From a virus: 57,013 nt of DNA. The notes under the pieces are model-generated. The model was given only the letters and a program-made list of their open reading frames with translations. It was not told where the DNA came from and made no database searches. Below are positions 221-57,013 of this stretch, in pieces. The stretch spans positions 1-57,013 of the IMG/VR virus record IMGVR_UViG_3300033148_007689; one strand, given 5' to 3'. The position numbers and the translations under genes are program-made. Positions within the stretch are counted from its first letter, which is position 1; every line of letters starts with the position of its first letter.

Positions 221-1076
221 ATGTCGACAATAAGCGATCAATAGGGTCGCCTTATCTTGAAAGAGATATTGAAAAACGGGGTGAATTGCTGGGATCTCCC
301 CCACAAGGGGACAATCAGCAGCCAAGCTTGGAAAGTAATTTCCTTGAAGGTTCAGAGACTAACGTCCGACTCCTACCGCATAGCGGGGAGAGTAATGACG
401 ACACGAGTGCCCTGCATCCTATAAATAGGATGATGATATAGTCCAAGCTTATAGGTAACTATAAGAAACAAAGTTTAAATGACTTTGTGATAATAAACTG
501 TCAAATTATACTATAGGCGGAATCGACCTATATTTCTCTGCTACTGTAGCTGATACTGATTTAGATAAAGGGACTACTACTGGTGCAGGAAGCGACTTCA
601 GAACTACTACAAAGAATTTGGGTAATATTGTTACAGCAGAACTTGCTCCTGATGTAACATTCCTAGAGCATTTTATTACTACAGCTGATGGAGATAGAAG
701 GAAAGATCATATAATTGCCTCTACAAAGAATTTAACTATACCATTCACGTTTGATGAAATGAATGAGGCTAATTTAAGACGGTTTTTCTTAGGACACAAT
801 ACCACTGCTTCTGTAGCCAACTCATTTACAGTTTTAGAAAATGCAAAACAAATTGGTAGTGCACAGGTATATTTTCATACAGATATAGGCAGGGATTTTG
901 TGTATATGATTCCTAAAGTTATGCTTCGTCCAGACGGAAATCTTGCAATGAATATTGAAGATTTTTGGAGTGGTCCTATGGCTCTTGATGTTCTATATTA
1001 TGACTGGACTCCAACTAACGAAGCAAGTCCTATATTAAGTGCTCACTATGGAGTGATGATGACAGCAGCATTCTAA
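221..1076 (+). CDS. Major tail tube protein, split by a group I intron
   Basis: Exon 1 is 221-238 (MSTISD) and exon 2 is 501-1076 (SNYTIGGIDLYF...), giving a 197-residue protein after splicing. The start ATG at 221 follows AAGGAAGGTG at 203-212. Both exons end on codon boundaries, so the join keeps frame. The function rests on position: it lies directly before the frameshifted chaperone pair and the tape measure, where siphophages keep the tail tube gene. Residues around DVTFLEHF and a C-terminal beta-rich part fit that fold, but no signature motif is decisive. Without splicing, translation stops at 242-244 after seven residues. Confidence 0.75.
239..500 (+). ncRNA. Group I intron, complete, ORF-less (intron 2)
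   Basis: A 262-nt intron. The 5' splice site is predicted after the U of exon GCGAU, which pairs with GUCGC at 245-249 (P1 with a terminal U.G pair). The core contains acaatcagcagccaag (311-326), P7 strands agacta and tatagtcc, a P8 hairpin catcct/aggatg and a P9 hairpin caaagt/actttg. The terminal G is base 500. Size and core resemble small group IA introns of phages. It has no room for a homing endonuclease. The 3' half is nearly identical to intron 1. Confidence 0.85.
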
Positions 1077-20146: not shown

Positions 20147-21100
20147 ATGCAAACTAAACAGGTCAAAGTCTTTGTAGTTGATACAGAAGGGAAACCCTGT
20201 CTGCCTACACGGTCAGCAAGGGCAAGACGGTTATTGCGAGATGGCAAGGCTAAGGTGGTTCAGGTTATGCCGTTCACGATTCAGTTAAAACGGATTGTTG
20301 CTAATCCGGTTGGCTCTTTTAAAGTTGGAATTGATGATGGTGCAAAGTATGTTGGTGTTGCAGTAATCAATGATAAAACAAATGAAGCAGTGTTCAAAGG
20401 GCAAATTGAGTTAAGGCAAGATGTTAAACGTTTGATGGAACAAAGGAGGAATTATAGACGTTCTCGAAGGTCAAGGAAATTAAGATATAGACAACCAAGG
20501 TTTAATAATCGAATTAGTTACAAACTACCACATTCTATTCGGTGCAGAAAAGATTCTATTTTGAGATTTTTAAGGGATATGATGAAAAGAGCTAATATTG
20601 TTGGTATAGTAGTTGAAGAAGTTAAGTTCAACCATTCCAAATATAGATGGGGTAAACAGTTTTCTTTAGTTGAACAGGGCAAAAATTATTTAAAGGAACA
20701 AATATTAATTTTAGGATTACTGTATCGTTCTGTTCTTGGTTACGAAACTAAAGCAAAAAGGTTAAATTTAGGATTGTCAAAAACACATAGTAATGATGCC
20801 GTTGCTATAGTTTGTGATAAAAACCCTGTCATTAAAAGTCTTGAATGGATTGTAAAACCAAGAAGAACTAAAGTCTGGGAAGATAACCCTACAAAAACCT
20901 GTATAGAAAAGAATGGATTTAGACATTTTGACATTGTCAAAAGTTATAACAGAAATAAGGGTAAAATAATTGGCTCTATAAGAAGTCTTAAAGCCAGAGC
21001 AATAACACTCAGGACTTCTTTTGATGACAACTTTGCTGTATCATATAATAAAACCAAGTTACTTCAACGACCGAAGGGTTTGGTTTATTTACAGGGATGA
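20147..21100 (+). CDS. isrB: IsrB-type RNA-guided nuclease (IscB family, HNH missing)
   Basis: 317 residues. An N-terminal PLMP-like domain (KPCLPTRSARARRLL) is followed by RuvC-I (GIDDG, D63), an arginine-rich bridge helix (98-121), RuvC-II (GIVVEE, E157/E158) and RuvC-III (SKTHSNDA, H214, D217). Where IscB carries an HNH domain between RuvC-II and RuvC-III there are only about 55 residues with no HNH motif, so it resembles IsrB, known as an RNA-guided nickase. RuvC residues look intact. It sits co-directional with the tail genes and is a mobile insert. Confidence 0.8.
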   Translation: MQTKQVKVFVVDTEGKPCLPTRSARARRLLRDGKAKVVQVMPFTIQLKRIVANPVGSFKVGIDDGAKYVGVAVINDKTNEAVFKGQIELRQDVKRLMEQRRNYRRSRRSRKLRYRQPRFNNRISYKLPHSIRCRKDSILRFLRDMMKRANIVGIVVEEVKFNHSKYRWGKQFSLVEQGKNYLKEQILILGLLYRSVLGYETKAKRLNLGLSKTHSNDAVAIVCDKNPVIKSLEWIVKPRRTKVWEDNPTKTCIEKNGFRHFDIVKSYNRNKGKIIGSIRSLKARAITLRTSFDDNFAVSYNKTKLLQRPKGLVYLQG

Positions 21101-25963: not shown

Positions 25964-26156
25964 CTTCTGTCACCTCAATTTTTAGATCTCCTTTACCAAA
26001 CTTATTGTATATCTTCACTCTTCTTCTTTTGAAACCTTTTACTCCAATCAACATGCTAATTAGTCTTTCACCACCCACAGGATCCCCGCTAGTATGCGCA
26101 CCATACCAAGTTTTCAACCACTTCTCTTTCTTAGATGCTGGTATTGTTATAATCAT
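25947..26156 (-). CDS. Hypothetical protein downstream of the reductase
   Basis: 69 residues; ATG 26156 overlaps the reductase stop (TAATG), so the two are coupled. Basic and beta-rich (FKRRRVKIYNKFGKGDLKIEV). No family recognised. Coupling suggests dosage linked to the reductase, not proof of a shared task. Confidence 0.55.
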   Translation of the reverse strand: MIITIPASKKEKWLKTWYGAHTSGDPVGGERLISMLIGVKGFKRRRVKIYNKFGKGDLKIEVTEDDGLY

Positions 26157-29100
26157 TATATGTCACATACCCCTGATCTGCAAGACACATCTTTTTCAGA
26201 TAAAGAATCAGAGACTCCTTTTTCATCCTTAATGTATTTCTCTATCTCTTTTCTAGACATCCTATAATATACTTGCTTCTCTCTGCTCTCATCTCTATAG
26301 ACTGTTACCCCTTTAAGATCGTAAATGTACTCTAATAATATTTTACTTAAATCTTCTGCTGTTGAAGATTTAGGCAACAAGATAGTCTTTGATACACTCC
26401 CATCCAAATATTTAGCTATAGTGGATTGCATTTCTAAATGTTCTTCTGGTTTTAAATCATAACTATCTACAAACCATTCACTATCATAATGTTCTTTACA
26501 CAGTGGGTGTATATAAATTCTATCACTAACACGATCTGATCTTAAGTACCCTTTAAAGGGTAAGGGCTCTATACCACCAACAACATCAGCCAATAATGAA
26601 GTTGTATTATGAGTGATAAAACCATTAGCTATATAAGTATGTGAATCTTCATATATTTCGAGATCATTTACATGCATATTATCATACACATTCGTTTCTG
26701 ATACTACATCAAAACATAAATCATTTTTAACAAACCAATTCATACTATCTATCCTCGAAATATAATTTGCTTTAGTAGTACAGATTACATTATTATTAGA
26801 TGAAAACCTATCCTTTGTATATGAAAGATGCTGACTATTAAAATGCATTAATTCATCTGGAGTTAGTATGATCAATTCCCTATCTCCATTTTTTGGTAAA
26901 GACACGTCAATATTATACAATAATTTCAACAATTTTACCGAGTTATATCTGTTTACAGAAATTCTATAGGCTTTACCTCTGGCAAACACTTCTCTACCTT
27001 CAATAATAGAATTGTTTTCCTTTGTTTCTTTTAAATGAGATACAAATCCAAGACCCAACAATATAGTTTGTATTTGATTGGCCATTGTTTCTGAAATAGT
27101 AGTAAATCCTATACGGTTATCTTCCTTTCTTATATGACCATTGCCTCTGTGGTAACCGCTTATAAAAGAAATTATATTGTTTAATGAACCGCTTAATATT
27201 ATATCAGGAATAAAAGCATTTATAGCTCCATATTTTATACATCCATGTTTTTGAAACCAATCATATAATTGTTTATTGCCAATCTCTAATCTCACAGATT
27301 TACTATCTAATCTATCACGTTTATATACTTTGATTTTAAACACATCCCCAAAAGACTTATATATCAAATTTGATATATATTCTGCTTCATTATTATTAGA
27401 AGTCTCAAAATATAATCTATGACTTCTTCCATTTACAGTCCACCAACCATCTGCCATATAATATCCTAATAATTCAGCTTTATGATCAGATAACCATGTT
27501 TGTCTCTTGTCGTACAGAAACCCTTTCTTCAACACAACTAAATCTCCTTTTTCTATATCACCCAAAGATTTCCAACTATACCCGTTCCCATCAGTTAATA
27601 CCCTCACTTTATGATCAAACGTTCCTTGAAGCTTATAACCATGTTTAGTTTTTATACTTTTAGTTTTAGCGATCCCCTGATCATAATATGCTTTTATATG
27701 TACATCCTTAAAATCTGATTTAGTAGAATTTCTTCCTCTACCAACTCTTAAATTAATCTTTTTATAATCTTCAATTCTTTTAGTACCAATCTCTGATGAT
27801 ATAAGAGTACCATCTACCAAACAACCCGTCGGAGCTGCTGTAGTCAACGTTACGTTACGAATTGAGTTTTCTTTTATGAGCATCCTTATTTTAGCAGGTA
27901 ATTTTCTAACAAAAGAGGCACTAGCATAATCTATTCTATTATATTTTGGGAATGCCCCTTTTTCTTTTGCTAGTTCCACAGAGGCTATGTAAGCTTCATC
28001 TCTGATAAATCTATATAATTTTTCTACTTCCGCAATGGCTCGTTCTGAACCATATCTTATCTCTTTCATAAAAAGATAGTCTGCAAGACCCATTGTACCG
28101 AGCCCGATCCTGCGAGCATTTTTAACAACTATTTCTTGTTGTGGGATTGGGTAGTAAGCTAGATCAATTACGTTGTCCATAAATCTTACAGCTATTTTAA
28201 TAGTCCTAGATAGTTTTTTCCAGTCAGTGTTTTTATTTATAATAAAATGTGGTAACACAAGAGCGCCCAGATTACAACATCCAAACTCTTCGAGCGGCAG
28301 TTCACCGCACTGTAAGTTGTTGATATAATTGAACTTTTTCTTTCCGTTCTCTGTCTTGCTCTCACTAACCATAACATAAAAATTATGAAATTCGTCCACT
28401 GTCCCATTGTATACATCTTCATATCCATCTTCTTCTATAGATACTATATTATAATTCATCATTCGATGCTTATATCCTTTTTCCATTGCGTACTTAACTT
28501 GACCAAGAAAAGCAGCCTTAGAAGTACCTGCACATCTAGTAGAACAATATGACTGTTCTCTCCTATGCCACTTGACAGAGAAAATTCTTCCACAATTCTC
28601 ACATTGCTTATTTACCCAAATACTACCGTTCTCAAAAAAAACATCAAGATCAGTTGTATCTTTAAGAACAAGAAACTTCCTATATGCTTTTAACTCGTAC
28701 CCTTTCATATATACTCCCGCTTCTTTAGCGGCAGCTTTAAGCATTGAACTAGCACTTTTATATTTTCCAAAAGCACAATTAGACCAAGGTATACTATTTG
28801 TTTTGCAGTACTTCTGCCACTCATCCTTGGTTACTTTCCTTCCTATATTTCTCATTAAATCAATGGCTATTTGGAATATTTCTTCTGGTGTAAGTCCCGT
28901 CCACCTACCGTTATTTTTACCCGACCAATTTTGTTTAATAAGCCAGTTTTTCTCAGGAAACCTATTCACTGGGTTATTCCTACCAAGCATATCTTGTGCA
29001 TGTAATTTATCATGATCTTTTTTTAACATAGGTTCAAGATTTACCCATTCATTATTAAGACCATTAAAATCATTATGATGCACTATTTCACCAGGTTTCA

Positions 29101-30304
29101 ACTTACGACCCAAATTAAACTCTGCAATAATTCTGTGTTCTGCTTTATTTGTAGATTTACCAACATTCCACCACACATAATCTTGTGATCTACTATTCGC
29201 CCTAAGAAATACATCTTTAAATGATGCATGAAATTTAACTGCGTGATGAAGCCTATCATTTTCTTTTAATTCGTCAGCCCGCTTATAAGTACCATCAAGC
29301 ATAAGGATCCCATGATTTTCAGTACATCTAATTATAGACCCATCATTAAGGGTTATCTTCAAAATTCTTTCTTTATACCCAGTGATTCTAGGGTTTCTCA
29401 TTAAACGTACAGTAACATTATTATTACTATCACTACAAAATACTGGCACATCTTTACCTTCATCAGCCAATTGTTTTATAGGAACATTGCCCCTACCGTC
29501 TGCTACAGCCACTAAAGTATTTCCCGTCACGCAAGGATTGACCCCCCGAATTGGACTGAAATAATATGAATTATTCTTTCTCAAATTGTCCCAATTTATC
29601 AAACCTGGCTCACTATGCTCCAACATATTATTAAGAATCATATCCCACAATTCTCTTGCTCTTACTGTTTCATATACTTTACCAGCAAATTTAAGATCCC
29701 ACTCATTGTCCTCTTCTACCGCTTTTAAAAAACCTGAATCTACAATTACTGAAATATTAAATTGTGTTAATTTATTGTGCTTTATTTTAGCATTAATAAA
29801 TTCTCTGATTTCAGGATGAGAGATATGGCACAAGGCAATCCCCGCACTTCTTCTCGCCCCACCAGTTTCTATTCTTTTCCCAGCATGATTAAATATTTCC
29901 ATAAAGGAAACTAGTCCTGAACTATTACCGCCTTTTGTAATAAGAGGAGCACCTTTAGGTCTCAAAGCAGAAAAATCTATCCCATTCCCACCACCATATG
30001 AAGAAATAATTAAATAATTCTTGAGTGTTTCTCCTATAGATTCAATACTATCTTCCAGAGGTAGAAAATTACAATTACTTGTAGATGGTCTCAGTTTACC
30101 AAGATTCCTTAGAATTCTTCCTGCAGGTATAAAATCCAAAGGTTCTATAATAGAGTAAAACTCCCCATAATACTTCTCTGCTTTGTCTCCTTCATTCTTA
30201 GCATTCTCTCTACATATTCTTTCTGCTAGGTGATCCCATTTAGTTTCATTGTCCCAGAAATATCTGCTCTCAGCTATCTTCTGGGCATTAGCGCTTAATT
30301 CCAT
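26156..30304 (-). CDS. nrdJ: Class II (B12-dependent) ribonucleotide reductase with two inteins
   Basis: 1382 residues from ATG 30304; an in-frame ATG at 30325 would translate the AAGGAGGAGGAGAAGG ribosome site as MRRRRRR and is rejected. Without inteins the enzyme is about 568 residues. NCNFLPLEDS, GGGNGIDFS and RRSAGIAL fit the NrdJ family; NP/CGE holds the thiyl-radical cysteine, and the C-terminus CRSGVC is the redox pair. It reduces ribonucleotides to deoxyribonucleotides using adenosylcobalamin and needs no oxygen or small subunit. Intein 1 is residues 258-665, intein 2 828-1233. It sits with a phosphoesterase and a nucleotidase gene. Confidence 0.88.
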   Translation of the reverse strand: MELSANAQKIAESRYFWDNETKWDHLAERICRENAKNEGDKAEKYYGEFYSIIEPLDFIPAGRILRNLGKLRPSTSNCNFLPLEDSIESIGETLKNYLIISSYGGGNGIDFSALRPKGAPLITKGGNSSGLVSFMEIFNHAGKRIETGGARRSAGIALCHISHPEIREFINAKIKHNKLTQFNISVIVDSGFLKAVEEDNEWDLKFAGKVYETVRARELWDMILNNMLEHSEPGLINWDNLRKNNSYYFSPIRGVNPCVTGNTLVAVADGRGNVPIKQLADEGKDVPVFCSDSNNNVTVRLMRNPRITGYKERILKITLNDGSIIRCTENHGILMLDGTYKRADELKENDRLHHAVKFHASFKDVFLRANSRSQDYVWWNVGKSTNKAEHRIIAEFNLGRKLKPGEIVHHNDFNGLNNEWVNLEPMLKKDHDKLHAQDMLGRNNPVNRFPEKNWLIKQNWSGKNNGRWTGLTPEEIFQIAIDLMRNIGRKVTKDEWQKYCKTNSIPWSNCAFGKYKSASSMLKAAAKEAGVYMKGYELKAYRKFLVLKDTTDLDVFFENGSIWVNKQCENCGRIFSVKWHRREQSYCSTRCAGTSKAAFLGQVKYAMEKGYKHRMMNYNIVSIEEDGYEDVYNGTVDEFHNFYVMVSESKTENGKKKFNYINNLQCGELPLEEFGCCNLGALVLPHFIINKNTDWKKLSRTIKIAVRFMDNVIDLAYYPIPQQEIVVKNARRIGLGTMGLADYLFMKEIRYGSERAIAEVEKLYRFIRDEAYIASVELAKEKGAFPKYNRIDYASASFVRKLPAKIRMLIKENSIRNVTLTTAAPTGCLVDGTLISSEIGTKRIEDYKKINLRVGRGRNSTKSDFKDVHIKAYYDQGIAKTKSIKTKHGYKLQGTFDHKVRVLTDGNGYSWKSLGDIEKGDLVVLKKGFLYDKRQTWLSDHKAELLGYYMADGWWTVNGRSHRLYFETSNNNEAEYISNLIYKSFGDVFKIKVYKRDRLDSKSVRLEIGNKQLYDWFQKHGCIKYGAINAFIPDIILSGSLNNIISFISGYHRGNGHIRKEDNRIGFTTISETMANQIQTILLGLGFVSHLKETKENNSIIEGREVFARGKAYRISVNRYNSVKLLKLLYNIDVSLPKNGDRELIILTPDELMHFNSQHLSYTKDRFSSNNNVICTTKANYISRIDSMNWFVKNDLCFDVVSETNVYDNMHVNDLEIYEDSHTYIANGFITHNTTSLLADVVGGIEPLPFKGYLRSDRVSDRIYIHPLCKEHYDSEWFVDSYDLKPEEHLEMQSTIAKYLDGSVSKTILLPKSSTAEDLSKILLEYIYDLKGVTVYRDESREKQVYYRMSRKEIEKYIKDEKGVSDSLSEKDVSCRSGVCDI
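26606..27823 (-). mobile_element. Intein 2 (406 residues) with LAGLIDADG endonuclease
   Basis: Begins CLVDGTLISSEIG and ends GFITHN before extein Thr, with block B at GTFDHKVRV. It splits the reductase motif APTG/TTSLL. The first LAGLIDADG motif is ELLGYYMADGWW; the second, FISGYHRGNGHI, has Asn where the acidic residue is expected. Splicing residues (Cys1, His-Asn, Thr+1) look complete. Confidence 0.85.
28310..29533 (-). mobile_element. Intein 1 (408 residues) with HNH endonuclease
   Basis: Begins CVTGNTLVAV (block A), has CTENHGILM (block B) and VYNGTVDEFHNFYVMVS (block F), and ends YINNLQ before the extein Cys. The insert lies between NP and CGE, directly before the catalytic thiyl cysteine. 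An HNH motif (GEIVHHNDFNGLNNEWVN... LHAQ) lies near its middle. The last residue is Gln, not Asn, an atypical but known intein ending. Confidence 0.85.
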
Positions 30305-30325
30305 CCTTCTCCTCCTCCTTCTCAT

Positions 30326-40690: not shown

Positions 40691-40718
40691 AACATAATCA
40701 TTAATTCTCATTTGTCAA
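40691..40718 (-). promoter_or_regulatory. Promoter facing the array
   Basis: Minus strand: TTGACA (40713-40718), 16-base spacer, TATGTT (40691-40696). The -35 and spacer AAATGAGAATTAATGA match the promoters at 51.9 and 52.3 kb. Predicted start near 40684, the 5' edge of the array. Confidence 0.75.
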
Positions 40719-40732
40719 GTGGTAAAATCAAT

Positions 40733-42905: not shown

Positions 42906-43115
42906 TTATCTTAGAGATACATGATAATTAAAAAACACCCCTGATAGGAAACTTAAGCACCAAGCTTGTCCCAAACTTATCTCTTTTAAATCAAACAGAT
43001 AAGGCATCACGTAGTCCCAACACCATTTAACTGGACAGGCTACGAGTATTGAGAGGAGCCCTAGTATTAGGACACCTCCTATAAATATAGTTATAGCTTC
43101 TACAACTTTATCCAT
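42906..43115 (-). CDS. Small membrane protein (69 residues)
   Basis: Two hydrophobic helices (IFIGGVLILGLLSILVACPV and WCLSFLSGVFFNYHVSL). Overlaps the upstream stop. Position gives no role. Confidence 0.5.
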   Translation of the reverse strand: MDKVVEAITIFIGGVLILGLLSILVACPVKWCWDYVMPYLFDLKEISLGQAWCLSFLSGVFFNYHVSLR

Positions 43116-43491
43116 ATTGCCTCCTTATTAAAACACTTTTGTTAGAAATACCAGAAAGCTCCAACACCCTCTCTATGTGCCTCTTTGTCCATGTCATCGG
43201 AAATTCTTCATAGTTACTTCGTATGCGATCAGAAGAAACACCCCTTAAAAGAGCTTTTAAAGCACGTCCTGCAGCCTTATTTTTACCAACACGACCATCA
43301 AACCTATCAAGGATGCTACAGATAGCCCATCCTTGACCAACAACCCCAGCTTCAGTTGTGATCTTACAAGTTACAAACTTAGGATATTCGACAGAGAAGT
43401 CTACTGATACTGGCTTTAGTTCTAATATTGACCCTATTAGTTTTTTATTTAAACCTTTCATCCACTTATTCTTTTTTTTATCCCTTTTCAT
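43108..43491 (-). CDS. Hypothetical basic protein (127 residues)
   Basis: Starts MKRDKKKNKWMKGLNKK; a beta-rich centre (PKFVTCKITTEAGVVGQGWAIC), then helices with many Arg/Lys. Looks nucleic-acid binding. No family recognised. Confidence 0.5.
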   Translation of the reverse strand: MKRDKKKNKWMKGLNKKLIGSILELKPVSVDFSVEYPKFVTCKITTEAGVVGQGWAICSILDRFDGRVGKNKAAGRALKALLRGVSSDRIRSNYEEFPMTWTKRHIERVLELSGISNKSVLIRRQYG

Positions 43492-43532
43492 TTGTCCCCT
43501 CCTTTGCTAAGTTGCCCATCTTTTTGAGTCAG

Positions 43533-43742
43533 TTATATAGGCTTGTTAGTTTTATCTTGGTCTTCCAAATACCATTCTGCAAATTTCTTGAAGCTTCTAT
43601 GATCTATTTTTATTCGCACATAGGGTTCAATCTCCAAGATAACACCTGATGAATCAATTATTATTTTTTTATTATTGAAAGCAATACCTTGAGCATCCAA
43701 TTCTTCAACATCAGTCACGCTTCTACAATTACACGGTTTCAT
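43533..43742 (-). CDS. Hypothetical protein (69 residues)
   Basis: N-terminus MKPCNCRSVTD with Cys pair, then short strands and helix. It follows the methyltransferase start by 9 bases. No function visible. Confidence 0.45.
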   Translation of the reverse strand: MKPCNCRSVTDVEELDAQGIAFNNKKIIIDSSGVILEIEPYVRIKIDHRSFKKFAEWYLEDQDKTNKPI

Positions 43743-43751
43743 AATTTACCT

Positions 43752-44531
43752 CTAAGAAAACAACCTTTGCTGAGCCAGACGTTTTTTGGCTATTTCACAG
43801 TAGGGTTCTGATAATTCTATACCTATCCATCTTCTGCCTAATTTCTCACAGGCAGCTGCTGTCGTACCCGAACCTAGAAACGGATCAAGAATTAAATCAT
43901 CTTGCCAAGTATAAAGTTTTGTCAATCTGTAAGGTAATTCCTCTGGGAAAGGAGCAGGATGGATTCTGCTGCGTTCTGGGGCAAAATACCAGCAATTTGT
44001 GGTAAATTTCATAAATTCTTCTATAGAAATATCATTTTGTCCTTTCTTATCTATTCTCTTATGATTTTTCTTATCCATTATAATAATAAATTCTGAGGCA
44101 TCTCTTAAATAGGGACAACTTGGGCTTCGCCAACTCCCCCAAGCAGTAGACCTCCCAGGGGGTTGAAAGTTAGGGGCTTTTACCCAACTAATCCATTCTC
44201 TGTCTATAAAACCAATTTCTCTCATTATCAAAACATAATCTAAGGTTAAATATGCCATTCTCGATTTAGAACTTTGAAGAATAGAGCTTAGTAAATTTAT
44301 GCTCATACGTCCCCCATTTATCAAAACTCTATAGCACTCAATTAAAACTTCTTTCATAAAAGAAAGATATTCTTTATAATTCCTTCTATCATTAGTTCCA
44401 TAATTCATTCCAACATTATAAGGGGGAGAAGTAATGATACAATCTATACTTTCATCAGGAATATCCTTCATTACTTCCAGACAATCTCCACAGAAAAGCT
44501 TTCCCAACCTGGTCTCAAAGTAAGGCTTCAT
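43752..44531 (-). CDS. DNA methyltransferase (TSPPY type)
   Basis: 259 residues. [13 protein letters not shown] near residue 35, then [14 protein letters not shown] and [17 protein letters not shown] at the end, beta-class order. TSPPY is common in cytosine-N4 and some adenine enzymes. Its C-terminus is nearly the same as the methyltransferase remnant at 48756-48938, so the two were once copies. Confidence 0.85.
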
Positions 44532-44551
44532 ATCATTTCCTCATATTTTCA

Positions 44552-45574
44552 TCACTCTTTTCCTTCATAAAATTCTGGATACCTATCAAACCTTAACTCA
44601 GAATGCTTCTCCAAAAAGGATTCAATCTCAAACTCATTTACTTTTTCTTTGTCTTTATAAATTAAAGTATGAGACTTCATAGTTTTAAACTCCTGCTTGT
44701 TCTTAGGTACTAGATAATTTCTATCTGCTAACAATCTTGCATACCCACCATAATAGGGAACTCCACTCTCATAGAAAAAAGGAACATAGCAATTTCGGTA
44801 GCATGGACCAAGTCTTGTTTTTATGACCTCAATACCCAACCAACTACCTATAACTTCGTTGCCTTTTTTCTCATCTATTATCTTTCTTTTATCCTCTAAT
44901 GCAAATCTAACCGTGTTAAAATACTTAAGTCCTTCCCCACCACTAGCTCGTTTAGGATCTCCGAAACTTACACCTACAGCATAATAAAAGTGGTTAACTA
45001 TTAGGACCATTACCTTATCATCTATATATCCCAACAACTTTCTCAGACCATCTTTAGTGCTCTTTTGTTTTCTTCCAGAATCTGACTTCTCTAAGTCTAC
45101 ATCTTTATCAAAAGCTGATATTGAATCTATTATTACTACTATATGTCTATCTTCATCCTGAGCACGTATTACCTCTATGGAATCTAGGATAAAAGAAAAA
45201 GCATCTGAAACTAATAAGACATCTTTAGGAAGAGCTCTGATAACCTTATCTGTATCTATACCTAATTCCCTAGCTCGCTTATCCATAAAAGCTTTTTCTC
45301 TATCTACTACTATACCAATAGCTCCATACTTTTTTTGAGCATTGGCCAAAATGATCTGGCAAAAAAGGCTCTTGCCAGATTGAGAAAAACCAATGAACTC
45401 AACACTTGAACCAAAAGGAACTCCTCCGTCTGCAATTAAATCAAATGCTAAATTCCCTGTAGAGACCATTTCTAGTTTTTCCTCTTCGTTGGAAGAAGAA
45501 ACAATTGATACTCCAGAATATTTCTTCTTTAGAAGTTCTGTTACTTTAGATAAATTAATCTCTTTATTAGTCAT
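44552..45574 (-). CDS. RecA/UvsX-like recombinase
   Basis: 340 residues. Walker A GFSQSGKS near residue 62, Walker B VVIIDSISAF near 146, a basic loop with KQKSTKDGLRK, and the L1/L2-like KRASGGEGLKYFN. Order and length match RecA/UvsX proteins, which form filaments on ssDNA for strand exchange. Genes for an ssDNA-binding protein, a UvsY-like candidate and Mre11/Rad50 are in the same operon set. Walker A has Q-S-G-K-S, with no large change. Confidence 0.85.
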   Translation of the reverse strand: MTNKEINLSKVTELLKKKYSGVSIVSSSNEEEKLEMVSTGNLAFDLIADGGVPFGSSVEFIGFSQSGKSLFCQIILANAQKKYGAIGIVVDREKAFMDKRARELGIDTDKVIRALPKDVLLVSDAFSFILDSIEVIRAQDEDRHIVVIIDSISAFDKDVDLEKSDSGRKQKSTKDGLRKLLGYIDDKVMVLIVNHFYYAVGVSFGDPKRASGGEGLKYFNTVRFALEDKRKIIDEKKGNEVIGSWLGIEVIKTRLGPCYRNCYVPFFYESGVPYYGGYARLLADRNYLVPKNKQEFKTMKSHTLIYKDKEKVNEFEIESFLEKHSELRFDRYPEFYEGKE

Positions 45575-45643
45575 ATTGTCCCCCCGAAAGCCAACCTTTA
45601 TATTCTCATGTTCTTACTGCTTTCCCTACATTCTCTTCTACCA

Positions 45644-50265: not shown

Positions 50266-51171
50266 TTAGGCTCCACTCTTCTCTGCCGCTTTCTTTGCTA
50301 CTATACGTGCACATGCCTTGAAATCCTTACAATTCTTACACTCTTCATCATTTTCATCAAAACATGCTTCATTACCAAAACAAGCTTCGTGCTCTTCATC
50401 AGCAGAAGGAGCTGTATCTGCGGTCTGCTCCACTTTCTCTACTTTCTCTTCCTCCTTCGCTGTATCCCACAGGGTTTGAGTATCTTCCTCTTTATATTCT
50501 AATATAGCAGTCTCACCGTTCACCTCTGCTTCTGTAACTCCCCAATGATACCACATCGGTTTCATAATCTTTTTGTTTCCTTTACCATCATCCCATGCAG
50601 GTAGTATTCTAAAGGTCAAAGTCTCATCCATTTTTAGAGTAGCTACGTTGAGGATGTCTTCTGTTTTAAGAAGCTCCAACATATTAGAAAGATTATACCT
50701 ACTATTAAGAGTTTCATCAGGAACATCATAGTCTGCTGGATTAAGAGCAGGATTAGTAGGATACTCATTAAATCCTCCGTTCCCTCTTTTCTTGGTAATC
50801 TTTATCTCCCGACCCTTTCCCTTCTTAGGGTGAGTAATGTTGCCCCACTCCTGTAGGTTTATTCCATCAAGAATAGCATTAGCAGCTTTGATACCAAGTT
50901 CAATTATAACTACTTTTGATGGGTTGCTGGGAAGTACCGCATTAACATATATTGTTGGCTTTGCGCTAAGGCGTTTTGCCATATCAATTTTGTCTTGCTC
51001 CCCACTATCAAATAGAGACTGAACCTTTTCACATACAAAGCATCTTCCCCCAATGTCTTTGTTGACCTTAGGGCAGAGAGTCCTTTGTCGCCTTCCCCTA
51101 ATCTCCGATTGAATCTCGGACTGGGCACTTATATCTAATTCCCAAGGGTCTTTATTCATTTGTTTTGCCAT
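50266..51171 (-). CDS. ssDNA-binding protein (gp32-like)
   Basis: 301 residues. The core ends with FRILPAWDDG and MWYHWGV, similar to the OB-fold segment of T4 gp32-type proteins, preceded by an N-terminal CPKVNKDIGGRCFVCEKV zinc-like cluster. The tail is acidic (YKEEDTQTLWDTAKEEE), then a C-terminal Cys cluster (ACFDENDEECKNCKDFKAC). The acidic tail fits an interaction region for recombinase and loader. AGGAG lies 7 nt upstream of ATG 51171. The promoter at 51230 drives it. Confidence 0.75.
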   Translation of the reverse strand: MAKQMNKDPWELDISAQSEIQSEIRGRRQRTLCPKVNKDIGGRCFVCEKVQSLFDSGEQDKIDMAKRLSAKPTIYVNAVLPSNPSKVVIIELGIKAANAILDGINLQEWGNITHPKKGKGREIKITKKRGNGGFNEYPTNPALNPADYDVPDETLNSRYNLSNMLELLKTEDILNVATLKMDETLTFRILPAWDDGKGNKKIMKPMWYHWGVTEAEVNGETAILEYKEEDTQTLWDTAKEEEKVEKVEQTADTAPSADEEHEACFGNEACFDENDEECKNCKDFKACARIVAKKAAEKSGA

Positions 51172-51229: not shown

Positions 51230-51257
51230 GTTATAATCATTAATTTTTGTTTGTCAA
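51230..51257 (-). promoter_or_regulatory. Promoter before the ssDNA-binding gene
   Basis: Minus: TTGACA (51252-51257), 16 bases, TATAAC (51230-51235). Spacer AACAAAAATTAATGAT shares ATTAATGAT with the other promoters. Confidence 0.75.
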
Positions 51258-51320
51258 GTCTTTTTTTGATTTTAATTCGATTTGTTTTCAATTTCTTTAT
51301 CATAATAAACAGTATATTTT

Positions 51321-51842
51321 TCATTCCTGCAAAATTTTAGAAGCTCTGCCAAGCTTCGTTTCAAAATCTTCCTCTCCAAATTTTATAGCTTCACCTCCCT
51401 TCCCCTGATAGATTCGAGGCTCTGGTAACATTATATCAGAGCTTAGTTGAACTAGCTCCCGCAGTCTAAATCCTCTCCCTCTCCATGCCTCTACAAAACC
51501 TTCTAAAATAGCTGCTGTTTCTTTAGCTTCGGCGAGTCTCTTCTTGACTTTCTGGTATCTCTTATCCAGAGGTACTTTACTTTTCCGTAAAGAATCCAAA
51601 GCATAAGCAGAAAGAGGCTTCTTATTTCTTTCTGCTTCCTTATCAAATTCATCTAAAATTTCTGCTACTACAATCTCCAAATTTAGAGTTAGTCTATCTA
51701 CCTCTCGCACACTTTCAGCAAGCCATCTAAAATATTTCGCTGTCTTTTTTGGATGTGAAAGGAGCTCCCGTTCTAGGGAGAACAGGCTTGCATTGTTTAT
51801 TTTTAACTCTTCTTCAAATTCATCAAGATTTATTGTTTCCAT
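51321..51842 (-). CDS. Hypothetical protein, UvsY-like candidate
   Basis: 173 residues from METINLDEF; the upstream frame start would lie in the -10 box. Helical and acidic then basic, with SDIMLPEPRIYQ near the end. In T4 the recombination mediator UvsY is a small helical protein beside this gene set, so a mediator is a guess. Position next to the ssDNA-binding gene is the only support. Confidence 0.45.
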   Translation of the reverse strand: METINLDEFEEELKINNASLFSLERELLSHPKKTAKYFRWLAESVREVDRLTLNLEIVVAEILDEFDKEAERNKKPLSAYALDSLRKSKVPLDKRYQKVKKRLAEAKETAAILEGFVEAWRGRGFRLRELVQLSSDIMLPEPRIYQGKGGEAIKFGEEDFETKLGRASKILQE

Positions 51843-51852
51843 AACATCTCCT

Positions 51853-51880
51853 AGTATAACCATTAATTCTCATTTGTCAA
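51853..51880 (-). promoter_or_regulatory. Promoter before the UvsY-like candidate
   Basis: TTGACA (51875-51880), 16 bases, TATACT (51853-51858). The ribosome site AGGAG (51848-51852) touches the -10 box, and the start codon is about 10 nt further, so the predicted mRNA leader is only a few bases. Confidence 0.8.
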
Positions 51881-51935: not shown

Positions 51936-52112
51936 TCACTTCGGTAATAAGTCAAAAAAAGGCAAGTGGTTTGTCTCCACCACTCTTAAATCAAACATAT
52001 CCAACAGCTTTACAGCTGCTGGAGCCTTTTTAGCATCTGTAAAAAGATGGTAAAACAGCGGCAGCTCGAACTTTTCTCGTTCCAACCAAACTTTATATAT
52101 ATCTTTTTCCAT
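51936..52112 (-). CDS. Hypothetical protein (58 residues)
   Basis: MEKDIYKVWLEREKFELPLF; aromatic and charged. It lies directly after the 36-bp repeats and is the first gene of that transcript. No family recognised. Confidence 0.55.
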   Translation of the reverse strand: MEKDIYKVWLEREKFELPLFYHLFTDAKKAPAAVKLLDMFDLRVVETNHLPFFDLLPK

Positions 52113-52149
52113 TTTTGCTTTCCTCTGTTTTCAAACGCTTCCTGTCAAT

Positions 52150-52319
52150 GGGTTTCTTATTTAAGATGGCTCGCTTACGTGCTGTGGGTTTCTTGAGACG
52201 ACTGGCTCGCTTTAAGCTTGTGGGTTCCTTCCTGATAATGGCTCACTTGTATTTTTGGGTTTCTTTACGAACTTGGCTCACTTGTCCCGCATGGGTTTCT
52301 TCGCATCTTTGGCCTATTT
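52150..52319 (-). repeat. 36-bp direct repeats in a leader
   Basis: GGGTTTCTT at 52150, 52186, 52222 (GGGTTCCTT), 52257 and 52293, and TGGCTC(A/G)CTT at 52167, 52203, 52239 and 52274, with a partial fifth at 52310. The period is 36, 36, 35, 36. Between them are 7-8 variable bases. The 35-base step breaks any reading frame, so it is not coding. It lies between a promoter (52322-52349) and the 58-residue gene. Confidence 0.75.
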
Positions 52320-52321
52320 CT

Positions 52322-52349
52322 ATTATAATCATTAATTTTCATTTGTCAA
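52322..52349 (-). promoter_or_regulatory. Strong promoter before the 36-bp repeats
   Basis: TTGACA (52344-52349), 16 bases, TATAAT (52322-52327); both boxes are perfect. Predicted start near 52315, the first repeat. The gene at 52339-52533 ends inside this promoter. Confidence 0.9.
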
Positions 52350-52533
52350 GGGGCATTTGTGTTTTTTTAAGATCTTTTCCTAAATAGAGTCCATCAGTAG
52401 TAGTATTATCAGGTCTATTATATCTTTCATCGGTGATAGTGTTTTCGGCAGGAGATGTCTCTACATATGGGTCTTTTTCACCCTCTTTAAACAGTGTCTC
52501 ACCCCACAGTCCCTTAAGTTTTATTGTCCACAT
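52339..52533 (-). CDS. Hypothetical protein (64 residues)
   Basis: MWTIKLKGLWGETLFKEGEK, then a polar tail ending at the promoter. aaaggagac upstream of ATG 52533. Function unknown. Confidence 0.5.
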   Translation of the reverse strand: MWTIKLKGLWGETLFKEGEKDPYVETSPAENTITDERYNRPDNTTTDGLYLGKDLKKTQMPLDK

Positions 52534-53028: not shown

Positions 53029-54064
53029 TCATGGAACCGGCTGTAAGGCATGAGGACTATAAACTCCCATGTGTGATAAATTAATAGCTGCGTTTAGATC
53101 CGCATCTATTTTATTACCACAAGCACATTCATAAACCTTCCCTTTACGGTTTGATTTACAAATGACTCCGCAATTACAGCATTTCTGGCTTGTATAAGCT
53201 GGGTTGACTTTTGTGAACAAGACACCGGCTTCCTCAGTCATTTGGAGGAGTTTCTGTAAGACCCTTACATAACTCCAACGCTGTAATTTGTTTGTGAATT
53301 TCTTTCGTATTTTCCCTTTACTTTTATGTTTTACATTTTTTAAGTTCTCAACAACCAGTTCACGAATATTAGATAAATCTATTTTATTTAAACTTTGATT
53401 TATAAGATTATTTCTTTCAACCAAAGCCCGTTTAAAGGCTTTACTCCCCTGTTTTTTCCTACTAATCTTTTCATAGATTTGTTCCATGCCATCATCATAA
53501 GATTTATTTTCTGATGTTTTGATAAGCTCTCTGTAACCACAGTCAAGCCCAACAACCCTTCCTTTTTGTTTCAATTCGGGCGTTTTTTTCTCAAAAAGAA
53601 CTTCAATAAACCATTTATTATATTTCTTTATCAAACGTATTGACTTGTTTTGTTTCCAGTCTTTGAATTTATTGAAGTGTTTATGTGTTTTTACTGGAAG
53701 CTTGATCTGAATTCGCTTGCCAATAGAAGACAAACGGATCCATAAATCAAAATATTTCCCATTTTTAAAATCTGTAAACCTTGAGTCAAGAGTAAAAGAG
53801 AATTTTTTAAAAATTGGCCTAGTTTTCTTTCTTCTCTTACGTTGTGATTTAACTATTTCAAGTGCTTGCTTGGCATTGCTGCATTCTTGCTGATAACCAA
53901 GTATCAACTTTGCAGTTAACAAACTTAGAAGAGAAGTCTTTCTGCTCCCAAATTAGATCAATAAAAAGATTAACAACTCTTTGCATTTCAAATGCAATGG
54001 AATCTAATTGGATTAATTTACCTTCATTTGCTTCATTTATAGATAAAATTGATCTTCTAATCAT
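53029..54064 (-). pseudogene. tnpB: tnpB-2 with a frameshift
   Basis: The N-terminal part from ATG 54064 (AGGAAG upstream) reads MIRRSILSINEANEGKLIQL... and the C-terminal 297 codons, in another frame, hold RuvC D (GLDCGYRELI), E (VVENLKNV) and D (DADLNAAINL) plus CCNCG...CACG. The frames cross between about 53900 and 53945. RuvC residues persist, so the inactivation is recent or a sequencing error. Different from tnpB-1 in sequence. Confidence 0.75.
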
Positions 54065-54132
54065 TTTACAACTTCCTAATTTGCTTGGAGTATTCACTTA
54101 CTTTCACGGTTATATTTTAATAATCTTTTAAA

Positions 54133-56804: not shown

Positions 56805-57013
56805 CTATACCCTCAACTTCCACTTCCTTGCTAAATGCCTCCCCAAAACACCGTCTATCAAAACATGACCATCAAAATCGAATATCAGTTCAGATTTTTG
56901 TTCAAGTGAGTCCGCCAGCCTTTTTTTAATTTCTTTGGTGATTGTAATTAACTCTAACGTATCTGATTCTGTTTCTTTCTTTTGAGGACAAAACCAATAT
57001 TCAAGGTCTGGGA
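56805..57013 (-). CDS. Hypothetical protein, partial
   Basis: The minus frame from the window edge (PDLEYWFCPQKKETESD) to TAG at 56805-56807, at least 69 codons. Helical then basic (RHLARKWKLRV). The N-terminus is outside the window. Confidence 0.4.
   Translation of the reverse strand, partial: PDLEYWFCPQKKETESDTLELITITKEIKKRLADSLEQKSELIFDFDGHVLIDGVLGRHLARKWKLRV

Follow-up and report, generated by a model that had tools for sequence, protein, structure and literature searches.

A promoter-driven dual-repeat TIGR array in a phage apparently without its own Tas protein

Introduction

Short direct repeats with a period of 36 nt follow a perfect promoter in a viral sequence, and the question raised by this locus is what such repeats are for. 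The window analyzed here is the whole 57,013-nt stretch of IMG/VR record IMGVR_UViG_3300033148_007689. For its repeats the original prediction offered an iteron-type replication origin, a leader array bound by a phage protein, or a regulatory antisense target.

TIGR arrays, described in 2025, are strings of paired short guides for RNA-guided Tas proteins (PMC12045711). They are defined by alternating repeats of 8–12 nt, spacers of about 9 nt (8 nt in SpTIGR) and a unit of about 36 nt; their repeats share box motifs and a 3′ CCA, the edge repeat having an extra pair, and the arrays start with a 5′ truncated edge and finish with a 3′ truncated edge (PMC12045711). We conclude with high confidence that the repeats constitute a promoter-driven dual-repeat TIGR array of the TasH/TasA type (AAG...CCA), carried by a phage that apparently has no Tas, the guides of which would be loaded in trans.

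Array Architecture

Read on the minus strand from 52319 to 52149, the region contains ten 10-nt motifs in which a loop repeat, AAGRAACCCA, alternates with an edge repeat, AAGYGAGCCA. These are two distinct repeats that both begin with AAG and end with CCA; eight of the ten copies are exact, and one GGGTTTCTT copy reads GGGTTCCTT. The register is 18 nt, eight of the nine steps between motifs having this length and one being 17 nt; steps of 17 and 19 are found in other arrays too. The repeat steps of 36, 36, 35 and 36 nt and the two motifs reported by the original prediction are present where it placed them, the 35-nt step arising because spacer B of unit 2 is 7 nt long. The bases between the motifs, which it overlooked, are spacers (guides): all are unique, and all but this one are 8 nt long. 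Against the chain of ten motifs in the window, no chain of four or more occurred in 100 first-order Markov simulations of it.

The array has five units and spans 52136–52319 (minus strand), with edge repeats truncated at both ends, as judged from the motif reading and the identity of its edge repeat to that of Salicola phage CGphi29. It opens with a 5′ truncated or degenerate edge repeat, AAATAGGCCA (52310–52319, minus strand); truncated copies of the ...GCCA type open many other arrays. The units, all on the minus strand, follow in order. Unit 1 (52284–52309) comprises spacer A AAGATGCG, loop AAGAAACCCA (52301–52292) and spacer B TGCGGGAC, and unit 2 (52249–52273) comprises spacer A AGTTCGTA, loop AAGAAACCCA (52265–52256) and the 7-nt spacer B AAAATAC. 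Unit 3 (52213–52238) carries spacer A TTATCAGG, loop AAGGAACCCA (52230–52221) and spacer B CAAGCTTA; unit 4 (52177–52202) spacer A GTCGTCTC, loop AAGAAACCCA (52194–52185) and spacer B CAGCACGT; and unit 5 (52141–52166) spacer A TCTTAAAT, loop AAGAAACCCA (52158–52149) and spacer B TTGACAGG. A 3′ truncated edge, AAGCG (52136–52140, minus strand), closes the array and is followed by TTT, as in a second array described below and in two relatives. The paired repeats, the spacer and unit lengths, the CCA with edge pairing and the truncated ends are those of a TIGR array.

Minus-strand reading frames meet stops inside the spacers, and the repeats are therefore untranslated on that strand, in line with the non-coding character originally proposed. 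A 90-aa frame on the plus strand opposite the array (52115–52387) is a by-product of the stop-free 36-nt period, and similar repeat-driven frames lie opposite arrays at 13 other loci. The array region matched no Rfam family, SNORD10 giving a weak, sub-threshold match at 52267–52309; folding of the leader RNA yielded no more structure than in shuffled sequences, and BLAST of the region against named phages found no significant match.

Related Arrays and the Tas Family

Scanning IMG/VR for the pattern gave 88 stretches, and many of these hold long arrays with both motifs at 18-nt steps. The same repeats were seen at the 18-nt register in 43 further viral records examined, of which 35 encode a Tas, usually adjoining the array. 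Among the remaining records, L079 is probably spurious, its spacing being irregular. The ORFs adjoining arrays form a single family (30 ORFs in 29 loci) with matches to the IS110-type Transposase_20 domain and often to HNH as well, and a profile of this family matches solved TasH (E = 2.5e-98) and the IS110-like chain 9mty (5e-37). Edge and loop repeats of the related arrays, picked by position and not by sequence, pair differently. Among 278 edges, positions 3 and 8 are G-C in 206 and G-U in 68, and positions 4 and 7 are C-G in 260, U-G in 10 and U-A in five; the 316 loops are A-rich with positions 4 and 7 unpaired. This pattern agrees with the published edge/loop rule (PMC12045711).

These comparisons bear on what the repeats bind. 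An iteron-type origin, or protein-binding DNA repeats of another kind, would suit direct repeats close to replication genes; however, an iteron origin would have tandem sites for a single initiator and no variable spacers, whereas many phages have this pair of motifs alternating with unique spacers beside Tas genes, and variation in the edge motif is base-paired at the RNA level, and this explanation is accordingly very improbable. The regulatory antisense target likewise found no support. The leader array binding a phage protein came closest, in that related arrays are guide-RNA precursors bound by Tas, but no recognizable Tas gene is present here.

Promoter and Neighboring Genes

The perfect promoter of the original prediction, a sigma-70-type consensus match (TTGACA-16-TATAAT), lies before the array on the minus strand (52322–52349), and the repeats therefore fall within its transcript. 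The RNA start is predicted about 7 nt past the promoter, at the 5′ truncated edge repeat; in this array and in the second array alike, the first CCA ends 12 nt after the -10 box. Of 78 arrays, eight have TATAAT in the 40-nt stretch that ends at the first repeat, compared with a background rate of 0.9%. Published TIGR arrays typically close with a Rho-independent terminator directly after the array (PMC12045711). In the window, a consensus-only scan placed the nearest hairpin with a T run about 150 nt downstream (51964–51985, minus strand), overlapping the end of a 58-aa ORF, and this hairpin is likely the end of the array transcript.

The 58-aa ORF (51936–52112), which has no family match, is followed on the same minus strand by genes for a UvsY-like recombination mediator (51321–51863) and a gp32-like single-strand DNA-binding protein (SSB; 50266–51171), and the array also lies upstream of clamp-loader genes. 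An early control region, as first proposed, is thus borne out, as are neighboring promoters of the same type at 51880–51853 and 51257. Copies of the promoter-like element stand on the minus strand before the uvsY-like gene (51853–51880), upstream of the SSB gene (51231–51258) and at 40694–40722. Searches of IMG/VR for relatives of the 58-aa ORF, clamp loader and UvsX found none. Replication and recombination genes recur close to several arrays, whether or not Tas is present: within 5 kb, uvsY was found at eight of 57 loci, ssb at seven and recA at five.

Other features of the window may be recorded here. Between the 58-aa ORF and uvsY (51930–51907, minus strand), AAGCCA is followed after 8 nt by GTGAAACATT, possibly a worn remnant of a second array, or chance. 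Upstream of the array is a TnpB-like gene (53029–54097, minus strand) whose beginning is in another frame (53858–54097), and it looks frameshifted. An IscB-type RRXRR protein of 317 aa (20147–21100, plus strand) gave no match to an HNH domain, and a ribonucleotide-reductase-like ORF of 1389 aa (26156–30325, minus strand) seems on inspection by eye to hold two intein-like inserts.

Absence of a Recognizable Tas

Neither the Tas profile HMM nor PF01798 or PF02371 matched the window, and a ParB-like gene was sought there and not found. Contig IMGVR_UViG_3300033148_008638 (59.5 kb) starts with an exact copy of the last 114 bases of the window (56900–57013) and supplies the half of the gene set that the window lacks: DNA polymerase, primase/helicase, terminase, portal, scaffold and head-tail adaptor. 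The two records, compared here without being joined, apparently belong to a single phage genome of at least about 116 kb. In a third contig, 3300033149_002411, sequences with 98.3% and 99.9% identity to these two records are continuous, the capsid region of the other contig being linked to the tail region of the window via a repeated group I intron. This supports a single genome, but the join may be repeat-induced. A group I intron (Rfam RF00028) occupies window positions 228–465, and several similar copies lie within or close to the capsid genes of the overlapping contig (positions ~42,994–45,586, L116/L117); these repeated introns are the likely cause of the assembly breaks. The overlapping contig also has a two-unit array about 1 kb beyond the window end; this second array finishes with AAGCGTTT, as the window array does, and the promoters of the two are nearly identical.

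Tas was also undetected in this contig by the same three models. In a profile-profile search of the 168 ORFs of both contigs, no Tas probability exceeded 4.5%, while five known Tas controls reached at least 99.3%. Absence here means that nothing was recognizable by profile methods in about 116 kb of an incomplete genome with a small head-tail gap.

An ordinary TIGR-Tas system could be present if tas lay in that gap or had diverged too far for recognition. The two contigs do not meet at this end, where the overlapping one has the head-tail adaptor and the window a tail gene and group I intron; no record is known to be complete, and most array-bearing records encode Tas. Yet the gap falls between structural genes, Tas usually adjoins an array where both are seen, and the profile-profile scores set the 168 ORFs far apart from the known Tas proteins. 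Two contigs related at the array site, G020 (12.7 kb) and G043 (58 kb), likewise carry arrays, and no Tas was found in either, though they too are incomplete. We regard a hidden tas as unlikely, but as a possibility with real weight.

Spacer Divergence and Probable Array Maintenance

The arrays of G020 and G043 occupy one shared site between conserved genes, and the gene that follows is 87% identical in the two contigs. Their repeats and AAGCGTTT end are preserved, whereas about 40% of spacer positions agree (manual count on the alignment). One unit of the G043 array is apparently duplicated (TCAAGCGC twice, with GGGGAGCT/GGGTAGCT), a hint of array expansion by unit duplication. The array at L104 1635–1752 (minus strand) has a duplicated unit in which spacer A is the same twice and spacer B near-identical, a pattern that suggests growth through duplicated units.

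Gene order at three loci (L034, L062 and L083) is array-tas-array-uvsY, and the window has the 58-aa ORF where tas and the second array stand, which would fit a decaying remnant that recently lost both. Against decay speak the nearly perfect repeats (eight of ten exact), the perfect promoter and the presence in this phage of another intact array behind a similar promoter, and we consider it quite improbable. Tas acting in trans is preferred because the repeats have been kept while the spacers differ, as expected of a working guide array. The arrays here thus seem to be orphan TIGR arrays kept by phages without recognizable Tas, and presumably served in trans.

Proposed Function and Guide Targets

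The preferred reading, that of a promoter-driven array served in trans, draws on the array anatomy, the edge identity, the Tas genes beside the same repeats elsewhere, the lack of recognizable Tas in 116 kb and the differing spacers; from these, transcription, processing to 36-nt tigRNAs, loading in trans and DNA targets are predicted. The minus strand would be transcribed from the array's own strong promoter into an RNA beginning at the truncated edge repeat, and the guides would load onto a Tas from elsewhere, whether host, prophage or co-infecting phage. Each guide would then direct a Tas dimer to a short DNA site, one strand of which pairs with spacer A and the other with spacer B. From the published cut rule and 8-nt 3′ overhangs (PMC12045711), we infer that the top strand of a target reads spacer B followed by the reverse complement of spacer A, giving TGCGGGACCGCATCTT as the predicted site for unit 1.

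Sites of this form showed no clear excess over control arrangements (24 against 16–23 at one mismatch or fewer; two against none exact), and none lay within the guide's own record. No target enrichment was seen for 600 guide pairs against 0.8 Mb of related array loci, and for the five window guides, the window contained no zero-gap site with up to two mismatches. These negative target searches count against the preferred reading, as do the lack of a Tas gene, which in the described system is encoded beside the array, and the distance between the array and the terminator-like hairpin.

Solitary CRISPR repeats of phages (Racr RNAs) inhibit Cas proteins, and an orphan array transcript might similarly act as a decoy or sponge, tying up a Tas that belongs to a rival phage or to a prophage of the host. 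The lack of a Tas in cis, the strong promoter, the few units and the conserved repeats would all fit a sponge, but a sponge has no need of constant spacer length, related phages carry differing spacers at one site, and the retention of truncated ends and unit structure suggests that the guides themselves matter; a pure decoy is thus improbable. There is about an even chance that a group of phages keeps short promoter-driven arrays with changing spacers and no Tas of its own, and uses or sabotages the Tas of a host, prophage or competing phage; split guide arrays would then be a trans-acting weapon or counter-weapon.

Published arrays were located by searching near Tas genes (PMC12045711), an approach that would miss arrays without Tas, and a literature search of limited scope found no paper on orphan TIGR arrays. 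The finding of differing spacers at one site in orphan arrays implies that Tas acts in trans or that the arrays themselves provide counter-defense, and pairs such as G043 and G020 provide natural material for the study of spacer replacement.

Comparison With Known Systems

The closest described system is the SpTIGR array of the TasH system in Salicola phage CGphi29 (HQ634153.1; PMC12045711). Read directly, that array has edge AAGCGAGCCA, loop AAGACAACCA, 8-nt spacers and an 18-nt register; its edge is found identically in the window, and loop length, CCA end, 8-nt spacers and 36-nt unit are common to both. The CGphi29 array is longer and directly follows tasH, whereas the window array has five units, its own promoter and no recognizable tas. 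At phage TIGR-TasA/tasParB loci the same repeats stand beside solo-Nop TasA and, in seven loci, beside ParB-like genes; in contrast, both TasA and ParB are undetected in the window phage. Phage CRISPR mini-arrays and solitary repeats are also promoter-driven guide arrays without effector genes. Unlike them, the window array has two alternating 10-nt repeats and split 8-nt spacers, and bears no relation to Cas.
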